Positions 1,151 to 19,271 of a stretch of DNA of 45,355 nt are shown in pieces. The notes beneath the pieces were generated by a model. It was not told where the DNA came from. It did no database searches and saw only the letters and a list, made by a program, of their open reading frames with translations. The stretch's first letter is position 1. Each line of letters opens with the position of its first letter. This DNA comes from an uncultured Pelagibacteraceae bacterium (GTDB lineage Bacteria; Pseudomonadota; Alphaproteobacteria; Pelagibacterales; Pelagibacteraceae): contig CABYLY010000002.1 in assembly GCA_902519945.1 (NCBI GenBank), positions 1 through 45,355 on the forward strand, in the 5' to 3' direction. A program made the translations under genes and the position numbers.

Positions 1151-2372
1151 AAAAGAAATTGATCTAAGCTTAGATCGAATTATTCACCTTTGTGAAAAAC
1201 TGGGTAATCCTCAGGATAAAATCAAAGCCATCAGTATTGTTGGGACTAATGGTAAAAACTCCACAATTCAAGCTTGTTATTCGATTTTAAAGGAAGCAGG
1301 AATTAAGTGTAATGTTTATACCAGTCCTCATATTCAAAAAATAAATGAAAGATTTATTTTTAACAACCAACAACTTGAAGATAATGAACTGGCTTCTTTA
1401 TTTGAAGAGGTAGAGAGAGTAAATGATAATAAATCAATAACATTCTTTGAAATTTTGACTGCATGTTTTTTTCATAAAGCTGCACAATATCCTAATAATC
1501 TAAATTTAATTGAGGCGGGTTTATTTCATAGATTTGATGCAACAAATGTTTTAAAGGATAATCTTGCGAGTATTGTAACTTCTATATCAAAGGACCATTT
1601 AGACTGGCTTCCAGAAAATGAGAGAACAATTGATAAGATTATTTTTGAAAAAACATCAAATCTTTTAAATTCAAATGTTATTGTTGCAAAACAATATCCT
1701 ATTTCAACATTAGAAAAAATAAAAAAAACTATTCATCAAAATAAATCTAATAAGTATTATTTTAATGATGATTTTTCATTTTCAAATGGAGAAAATGAAT
1801 TCTTTTATTATGAAGATAAATTTGGTGGATTAAAACTACCAAAGCCAAATGTTTTAGGTCAATTTCAACAGGAAAATATTTCAACAGCTATTGCAACCTT
1901 AAGAATTTTAGATCTGGGTATTAAAGATCATCATATAAAAAAAGGTATTCAAAAAATTGACAATCTTGCACGACTTCAAAAAATTGAGTCAGGTAAATTA
2001 AAAGATTTAGTTAAAGACAATCTTTTTTTAATATCTGGAGACCATAATGAAGACGGAGCAAGAGTATTGAATGAATATTTAAAAAGCCTAAATTGTAAAA
2101 AACATGTCATTATTGGTATGATGGATAATAAAGAACATGAAAAATATATTAACCACTTTAAAGATATTGCCTCAATAACAACTGTGGATATTAAAAACCA
2201 ACCAAATGCAATTAGTGGACTTAAATTAAAACAAAAATTTAAAAATATCCCAAATGTAAATTACAAAGAAAGTATTGAAGATGCAATCAAGAGCATAAAT
2301 CTTAATCAGGGAGATCTTCTACTTATAACTGGATCATTATATCTTTGTTCTGAAGTTTTGAATTTAAATTAG
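1107..2372 (+). CDS. folC: Bifunctional folylpolyglutamate synthase / dihydrofolate synthase
   Basis: A Mur-ligase-type enzyme of 421 residues that adds glutamate to dihydropteroate and to reduced folates. The N-terminal EIDLSLDRI segment and the LGNP turn are typical of alphaproteobacterial FolC. The P-loop reads GTNGKNST (residues 46-53), where the usual form is GTNGKGST. The second metal/ATP loop, TSISKDHLDWL, is present, as is a C-terminal GSLYLCSEVL typical of the family. The ATG at 1107 lies inside the 3' end of accD, but the N-terminal homology starts immediately after it, so this start looks right. The stop overlaps the convergent trxA stop by 4 bases. Confidence 0.93.
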   Translation: MKLQKILSRFLKLHKKEIDLSLDRIIHLCEKLGNPQDKIKAISIVGTNGKNSTIQACYSILKEAGIKCNVYTSPHIQKINERFIFNNQQLEDNELASLFEEVERVNDNKSITFFEILTACFFHKAAQYPNNLNLIEAGLFHRFDATNVLKDNLASIVTSISKDHLDWLPENERTIDKIIFEKTSNLLNSNVIVAKQYPISTLEKIKKTIHQNKSNKYYFNDDFSFSNGENEFFYYEDKFGGLKLPKPNVLGQFQQENISTAIATLRILDLGIKDHHIKKGIQKIDNLARLQKIESGKLKDLVKDNLFLISGDHNEDGARVLNEYLKSLNCKKHVIIGMMDNKEHEKYINHFKDIASITTVDIKNQPNAISGLKLKQKFKNIPNVNYKESIEDAIKSINLNQGDLLLITGSLYLCSEVLNLN

Positions 2373-2686
2373 ATATTTTTTTCTAAAAATTCTTTCATGT
2401 GACTTTCGGGTACACCGCCAACTTTTCTATCCACTTCTACACCTTTTTTATAGATAATTACAGTTGGCACACCTCTTATTCCAGCAGCACTCCCTGTATT
2501 TATTCCACCTTCTTCAATATCAGCGTAATAAAATCCTGCTTTATCTTTATACTCAATAGCGAGTTTATCCATAATTGGTTTTAGGGCTTTACATGGTCCA
2601 CACCACGCAGCCGAAAATTGAATTACAGAAATGTCTTCATTTTTAATTTTGTTATCAAAATCTTCGTCTTTAAAATCCGTTAGCAT
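2369..2686 (-). CDS. trxA: Thioredoxin
   Basis: A single thioredoxin fold of 105 residues with the redox active site WCGPCK preceded by FSAAW, and the cis-proline region GVPTVIIYKKG. It reduces protein disulfides in the cytoplasm using thioredoxin reductase. The family usually runs 105-110 residues, so this is full length. It ends 4 bases inside folC (convergent) and is the first gene of a minus-strand block. No strong Shine-Dalgarno is evident. Whether it is the main thioredoxin or a paralogue cannot be decided from one window. The second half of the protein is somewhat divergent (GINTGSAAGIRGVP). Confidence 0.92.
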   Translation of the reverse strand: MLTDFKDEDFDNKIKNEDISVIQFSAAWCGPCKALKPIMDKLAIEYKDKAGFYYADIEEGGINTGSAAGIRGVPTVIIYKKGVEVDRKVGGVPESHMKEFLEKNI

Positions 2687-18920: not shown

Positions 18921-18996
18921 TGGTGGGCCCTCCAAGAATCGAACTTGGTCTTTTAGATTTTCAGTCTAACGTACGCACCAGCTATACCAAAGGCCC
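18921..18996 (-). tRNA. tRNA-Phe (GAA)
   Basis: 76 bases with encoded CCA. Acceptor GGGCCTT/AGGGCCC has one G-U pair. Anticodon stem TTAGA/TCTAA holds loop CTGAAAA with anticodon GAA. T arm is CCAAG-TTCGATT-CTTGG, and the discriminator is A. It lies 12 bases downstream of the infA stop on the same strand, so it may be cotranscribed with infA. Confidence 0.95.
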
Positions 18997-19008: not shown

Positions 19009-19271
19009 CTATCCCCTAAAAATTATTCTTCCCTTAGTCAGATCGTATGGGGTCATTTCTACCGTCACATTGTCACCCTGTAACACCCTAATTCTATTTT
19101 TTCAGTCTATAAGACTAGTCCCCAACTAGTTAAAGTTGGGGACTAGCCCCGTAACTTTCCTGCAGTATGGGCGGTTACTGTATGACCATTTTCTAATTGC
19201 ACTCTAAACATAGCATTAGGTAATAAATCAATAACTTTGCCCTTAAATTCTAATAAGTCTTGTTTTGACAA
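19009..19271 (-). pseudogene. infA: Translation initiation factor IF-1, split by a 47-base insert
   Basis: The two halves together encode a complete IF-1. From TTG 19271, preceded by GGAG at good spacing and one base after hisD, the first 41 codons run to HTAGKLR (CGG, 19149). From AAA 19101 the sequence resumes in another frame as [11 protein letters not shown] and ends with KGRIIFRG at TAG 19009. Joined, this is 71 residues with no residue lost or gained, and family members have about 72. Between them lie 47 bases (19102-19148) with an in-frame TAG two codons after R41. infA is essential and its place after murA-DUF2948-hisD is conserved, so this is the true orthologue. Unknown: removal at RNA level, ribosomal bypass, a second copy elsewhere, or assembly error. 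Confidence 0.82.
19102..19148 (-). repeat. 47-base hairpin insert inside infA
   Basis: On the coding strand the insert begins GGCTAG, giving an in-frame stop. It contains a perfect 12-bp inverted repeat, CTAGTCCCCAAC / GTTGGGGACTAG, around an 8-base loop. Next comes a second short stem AGTCT-TAT-AGACT. The length is not a multiple of three, and further in-frame stops occur. No target-site duplication is clear. An alternative boundary one base earlier (CG|...|A) would also restore CGA AAA. It resembles a minimal palindromic element or the folded coding gap of a ribosome-bypass site, but matches neither fully. Confidence 0.65.

Follow-up and report, generated by a model that had tools for sequence, protein, structure and literature searches.

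The interrupted infA gene

The DNA under study (45,355 nucleotides, G000:C2:1-45355, hereafter the window) belongs to a SAR11-like draft genome, G000, that is 78% complete. On its minus strand, 47 nt interrupt the infA gene past codon 41, and codon 42 onward lies in another frame. The location of the features relative to this break is given in Table 1, together with that of the trxA-like gene of the same genome. A preliminary description of the locus had placed the break between R41 and K42 and this was confirmed, the two halves rejoining to a full IF-1 protein (TIGR00008, 111.5 bits for a cut-off of 61.15), while the N-terminal half with one extra Gly scores 51.3. Its statements that a TAG stands in frame two codons past the break and that the frame changes across the insert also held, since R41 is followed directly by GGC TAG and the 47 nt amount to 2 mod 3. 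A TGA stands immediately 5' of K42 in the reading frame of the C-terminal half.

Table 1. Positions in the window of the interrupted infA gene, its inserted element and the trxA-like gene
Feature	Position	Strand	Evidence
infA codons 1-41, from TTG start to take-off codon	19149..19271	-	sequence
Proposed take-off codon CGG (Arg41)	19149..19151	-	codon count
47-nt inserted element (proposed skipped segment, landing triplet included)	19102..19148	-	alignment
In-frame TAG, second codon past take-off	19143..19145	-	sequence
17-bp stem with 6-nt loop (19128-19133), beginning with the final two bases of the take-off codon	19111..19150	-	fold and family covariation
Unpaired tail, from stem to landing triplet	19105..19110	-	fold
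Proposed landing triplet TGA, not decoded	19102..19104	-	alignment
infA codons 42-71, frame differing from that of codons 1-41	19012..19101	-	sequence
infA stop TAG	19009-19011	-	sequence
trxA-like thioredoxin gene of G000, intact	2369..2686	-	protein search

The perfect inverted repeat of 12 bp reported in the preliminary description does exist but is longer, with 13 perfect bp (CTAGTCCCCAACT/AGTTGGGGACTAG) and 17 bp when G-U pairs are counted, the latter extending the stem into the R41 codon as far as its second base. Folding of this hairpin gave -29.7 kcal/mol (z = -6.9), which none of 200 shuffles equalled, and the second small stem that had been described was not recovered as a separate stable structure.

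A second infA elsewhere in the genome had been considered as well, and the assembly of G000 (78% complete) contains no other IF-1 gene at E <= 0.001. Nor does this assembly carry a further close copy of the hairpin; its weaker covariance-model matches correspond to terminators, and those at C22 and C1 were dropped as terminator-like. When compared to Rfam 15, the insert has no match above the gathering score (two sub-threshold matches, E 0.2 and 0.25) and the window as a whole matched only tRNAs. An 11-nt match to the anticodon arm of the adjoining tRNA-Phe gene (18921-18996) lies at the end of the insert (TAGACTGAAAA, 19099-19109); this likeness is present only in G000 and in one other carrier, G129, and was dropped as probably due to chance.

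Recurrence in infA and trxA of SAR11 genomes

Altogether, 15 elements occur at six sites of infA and trxA in 13 SAR11 genomes. The R41 hairpin is found in six of these, with nearly identical copies in G000, G077, G129, G182 and AG-894-B07 and a diverged one in G338. A related hairpin is located after G50 of infA in three genomes (G182, G247 and G298), G182 carrying both sites with the second hairpin nine codons past the first. Searching 101 genus genomes with the exact hairpin pattern revealed the second carrier, G077, interrupted at the same infA codon; a shorter pattern over 399 genus genomes added G129 and G182, and a scan of genome contigs AG-894-B07. A covariance model of the hairpin then detected G247 and G298, which have the second site alone, and G338, followed by the trxA elements of G093 and G312. 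Among its matches at E 1e-7 to 5e-6, three are real elements (L088, L089 and L095) and 13 other loci (L090-L094, L096-L103) were discarded as terminator-like by their sequence. A terminator-like palindrome (AAATAGGCRCCAATT and variants; see for instance L082, about 808-843), which the model can mistake for an element, is present in G000 and in 13 further genus genomes.

An infA match occurs in 318 of the 399 genus genomes, and the gene is interrupted in seven of these (G000, G077, G129, G182, G247, G298 and G338). In a set of 25 genomes that was searched again, with uninterrupted ones chosen mainly for low scores, uninterrupted infA fitted the profile without a stop and those of G346 and G342 were cut by contig ends. 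By match counts taken for each of the 318 genomes, an infA match that is neither the gene itself nor another piece of an interrupted gene was found in a single genome, G329, in which an intact infA is accompanied by a second piece that, after KLRK, runs into a dapD-like sequence near a contig end (L197 / L239, G329:C5:1-1500), probably an amplification chimera.

These counts bear on whether the interrupted genes could be pseudogenes, an intact copy or a substitute being located in the unsequenced part of each carrier genome. The carriers are indeed drafts, yet no intact second infA was detected in any of the seven carriers searched, AG-894-B07 being outside this set; with a completeness of 52-88%, the chance of missing such a copy in all seven, if each had one, is near 1e-4 (product of the missing fractions). 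With pN/pS moreover about 0.1 in every piece of infA (see below), this explanation is very unlikely; the second-copy argument is weaker for trxA, since thioredoxin has paralogues.

Amplification or assembly artefacts were also considered, because single-cell amplification produces inverted chimeras, as G329 does show in infA, and because four carriers have AG- or AH- isolate names, which we take to designate single-cell genomes (the titles of two say MAG). Nevertheless, the insertion falls at the same codon in genomes that are independent of each other, whose flanking sequences have diverged, whose stems show compensatory changes and whose tails differ, and HisD of the other seven infA carriers is 3% to 54% different from that of G000. 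These independent recurrences rule out single-cell chimeras as a general explanation, and artefacts of either kind are extremely improbable. They also answer the concern, raised in the preliminary description, that the insert might be misassembled or an isolated palindrome of recent origin, 12 other genomes holding 14 more such elements.

In trxA, interruptions occur at four codons in five genomes, namely G093 (two elements), G312, G119, G125 and G142. The insertions are located after W28 and after G71 in G093, after A29 in G119, and between C32 and G33 in G125 and G142 (residues numbered as in E. coli), where they split the active-site WCGPC of thioredoxin. When the rejoined G312 thioredoxin was searched in 206 genus genomes and partial matches were inspected as sequence, trxA was found to be interrupted in at least 4 of the 206, in addition to G312, which lies outside that sample; the figure is a minimum because it covers matches down to about 1e-15. 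The join in G312 is exact to the residue because intact trxA products of G161, G061 and G167 match the rejoined protein over its full length with 97-98% identity; in the other trxA carriers it rests on the conserved protein. Where the G093 element reads GGC TAG, that of G312 (L238) reads GGC TTG and lacks the early stop; a paired change preserves its stem. In G000, G093, G312, G119 and G142, trxA and infA are about 8-27 kb apart.

Inserts in other genes were surveyed in ca. 2 Mb (445 kb of G000, 780 kb of G012 and 400 kb each of G093 and G142) and in 20 regions. Clear inserts were found only in infA (G000, G247 and G338) and in trxA (G093, G71 site), along with four other alignments that were weak or antisense to infA. 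The survey recovered two of the four known elements of the pooled stretches and missed those of G093 (trxA-W28) and G142 (trxA-C32), so that further inserts may have escaped it where a gene is short or the insert lies close to a gene end, and the restriction to two genes is tentative. In the 20 regions, which come from further genomes and do not all contain trxA, no new interrupted trxA was detected. One-base frame breaks were noted in a few alignments of G000 to ORFs of G012 (C4:24735-24978, C1:26372-26655 and C3:49077-50250) and may be errors, start differences or real frameshifts. Two infA/trxA-G71-type patterns found nothing in viral contigs, and a trxA-C32-type pattern had three matches, all in GC-rich contigs with no interrupted gene visible by eye; two matches in phage records, at E = 4, are at chance level.

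Anatomy, selection and spread of the elements

The elements share a common organization. In all 15, the gap (28-53 nt) has a length of 1 or 2 mod 3, alignment to relatives indicates that the pieces rejoin to the conserved protein with no residue gained or lost, and the folded stem begins either at the proposed take-off codon or immediately past it. Stem length is between 7 and 20 bp, the short ones belonging to two trxA elements (W28 and A29). Despite the range in gap length, the codon at which the conserved protein continues lies 8-13 nt beyond the 3' end of the stem in the 13 distinct elements. A stop is the second codon in 11 elements and the first in one, and comes later in the remaining three (G312, G338 and G119).

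A hairpin following a stop codon resembles some readthrough signals, but readthrough at this position would stay in the wrong frame and meet a further stop, while the TGA directly before K42 closes the frame of the C-terminal half. Together with the insert lengths, which are never a multiple of three, this makes the probability of readthrough or of ordinary frameshifting at the hairpin virtually nil. The same TGA stands against a split protein whose pieces would be translated separately and then reassembled. Small folds may in principle be splittable, but no usual start codon is found ahead of the conserved residues of the C-terminal piece, the 71-residue protein of G182 would have to be made in three pieces, and the split in G125 and G142 would fall between WC and GPC of the thioredoxin active site. 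A split protein is accordingly highly improbable, and it was rejected, like readthrough and frameshifting, on stops, frames and starts.

The take-off codons are CGG (4), AGG (2), GGG (5), TGG (1), TGT (2) and GCC (1), thus NGG in 12 of the 15 elements. In the long ORFs of the examined part of G000, CGG accounts for 31 of 111,533 codons (0.28 per thousand), with AGG at 3.4, GGG at 4.8, and TGG and TGT at 7.8 per thousand. The proposed landing triplet shares its middle base with the take-off codon in every element and its first two bases in eight, and is often synonymous or near-cognate (AGG/AGA, GGG/GGA, GGG/GGT); in the pairs CGG/AGA and UGU/AGA, the middle base is the sole match. The two are identical in none, and the preliminary description was literally right to find no identical codons in G000 (CGG and TGA). 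At R41, the landing triplet is TGA in G000 and G129 and AGA in G077, G182, AG-894-B07 and G338. Random landing within the tails and the next nine bases equalled the summed pairing score in 8 of 200,000 draws, and in 715 of 200,000 when each site was represented by its worst element. G129 and G298 were omitted from these statistics as having the same inserts as G000 and G247, and a better-pairing triplet occurs elsewhere in the same interval in five of the 13 distinct elements. The codon at R41 is AGA in 25 of 31 uninterrupted infA sequences caught by a sequence pattern, and the landing match may partly reflect a native codon left by the insertion. In G000 and G129 the triplet cannot itself be read as the arginine, being TGA. 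A tRNA-Arg(UCG) is present in the examined part of G000 and could form two Watson-Crick pairs and one G-U pair with UGA.

Every piece of infA is under purifying selection in the rejoined frame, on both sides of the insert. With counts added up across every pairwise comparison among the eight infA carriers, these comparisons not being independent of one another, pN/pS in this frame is 0.12 for codons 1-41, 0.10 for codons 42-50 and 0.10 for codons 51-71, when compared to 1.7 and 5.0 for codons 42-71 in the other two frames; these values were computed for infA only. The five similar R41 hairpins differ at 0-1 of 36 nt, while their infA genes differ at 7-34 of 71 third positions (up to 48%) and their tails at 0-5 of 8 nt. 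The pieces past the insert thus continue to evolve as parts of IF-1, and the likeness of the hairpins reflects either constraint or recent sharing.

The stem also covaries. In seven elements from both genes, a stem of 14 bp is paired in 98 of 98 cells and 8 of the 14 pairs display double changes, a number reached by 6 of 500 shuffles, with a covariation score of 0.69 versus 0.22 after shuffling (reached by 0 of 500); the arms were laid out by hand from the folds, which favours pairing but cannot alone yield double changes.

In a HisD tree without G329 (45 residues) and G125, carriers fall in several places, with a degree of clustering that label shuffling also produces (189 of 500 shuffles as low). 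Support for the infA tree is weak, and its filter lost 23 of 46 intact loci. As judged from these trees, and this is the one use made of them, the distribution of carriers is patchy. AG-894-B07 is close to G000 in HisD (96% identity) and far from it in infA (32 of 71 third positions differ), which suggests that infA moves by recombination. Its downstream infA stretch (L105, infA to tRNA-Phe) resembles that of the distant G077, a pattern likely due to local recombination. The hairpins may be either mobile themselves or old and often lost.

A proposed translational bypass and its relation to known systems

In the favoured reading, which we infer with a probability of about 0.62, ribosomes would hop over the 47-nt insert, making it a translational bypass element that belongs to a family present in SAR11 infA and trxA. 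Under this proposal the ribosome would decode up to the take-off codon, usually NGG, and would stall there in the context of a stem-loop starting at that codon and, usually, of a stop one codon further. The peptidyl-tRNA would then release the mRNA and the stem, often including the last bases of the take-off codon, would close. The tRNA would re-pair just beyond the stem, with a tail triplet that is cognate or near-cognate to it, the predicted pairs being AGG to AGA, GGG to GGA or GGU, CGG to UGA or AGA, UGG to UGC, UGU to AGU or AGA, and GCC to ACU, and decoding would restart at the next codon, at the 8-13 nt distance noted above. The amino acid would be supplied by the take-off codon, and as the landing triplet would not be decoded, it may be UGA as in G000. 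Minimal pairing can reportedly suffice for resumption, a point that Herr is said to have made in 2004. Bypass is favoured because of the gap size, the stem at the take-off codon, the stop near the A site, the partially pairing landing triplet and the placement of junctions at codon boundaries.

The main rival is that the hairpin is cut from the mRNA and the ends are joined before translation, as in a tiny intron without known machinery. Such excision would account for the precision with which the pieces rejoin, for the covariation of the stem and for the fact that stops are tolerated. It is nevertheless unlikely, as the cut sites would have no simple geometry in common, given stem lengths from 7 to 20 bp and a further 8-13 nt of tail beyond the stem, and as landing triplets match the take-off codons above chance. 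Furthermore, by inspection, every junction is compatible with a codon boundary, and those of G125 and trxA-W28 allow no other placement, which splicing would not require. To our knowledge, no bacterial pathway religates mRNA by cutting and joining such a hairpin.

The T4-like ribosomal skipping put forward in the preliminary description therefore stands as the best-supported reading, with RNA excision as its main competitor, and that description is partly supported overall; neither the family in two genes nor the near-cognate landing was visible from the window alone. As in T4 gene 60 (50-nt gap), the SAR11 elements combine a gap of similar size, a stem-loop positioned at the take-off codon, a stop in the A site or close to it, a product encoded in two frames, and resumption after a triplet that partly pairs with the take-off tRNA. 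They differ in occurring in cellular housekeeping genes and at six sites, with mostly longer stems, and in that a stop directly adjoins the take-off codon in a single element. No KKYK is found in IF-1 residues 1-41 of the eight carriers, where another peptide signal is possible. Since take-off and landing codons are never identical, the elements may work like T4 gene 60 but are not classed as the same element.

Other palindromic inserts are known inside protein genes of Alphaproteobacteria, namely the Rickettsia palindromic elements, which are longer. These are in frame and translated, whereas the SAR11 elements are out of frame and contain stops. Sliding in T4 is described as processive up to 56 nt, which the SAR11 gaps of 28-53 nt fit, and the same source describes the T4 gap as largely unfolded, in contrast to the SAR11 gaps, which mostly consist of one hairpin (PMC11194080). 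In the parts available of two reviews, well-supported bypassing comprises one phage gene, T4 gene 60, and the mitochondria of the fungus Magnusiomyces, along with a few unproven bacterial or phage candidates in Prevotella and Streptomyces phages (PMC5009743, PMC8211752). According to the first of these, as far as its accessible text goes, the mitochondria of Magnusiomyces capitatus resemble SAR11 in having short inserts at several places in essential genes and take-off and landing sites that are not always matched, but differ by 81 inserts in one mitochondrial genome with relaxed decoding, where one or two are known per SAR11 genome; the 29-nt hop of the Prevotella loescheii adhesin gene is likewise a candidate in a bacterial gene, but is presented there as a lone report without follow-up (PMC5009743). 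In the literature on bypassing and frameshifting that was searched, which left out most subscription journals, no report was found for SAR11 or Pelagibacter, infA or trxA.

The broader proposal is that of a hop-element family in which hairpins at six or more codons of two universal SAR11 genes, in several infA backgrounds, would be made harmless by the ribosome, the stem closing over the take-off codon and the tRNA re-pairing past it with a near-cognate triplet that is on occasion a stop codon. We consider the odds of this full picture to be even. Gene callers would score such genes as broken or missing, so that similar elements may be overlooked elsewhere. If RNA excision were true instead, it would represent a new kind of bacterial mRNA processing. 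If bypass is true, these elements would constitute a natural series in housekeeping genes, varying in stems, stops, and take-off and landing codons, and thus an evolutionary experiment on what a hop needs, which raises the question of why SAR11 tolerates hops in infA and trxA.
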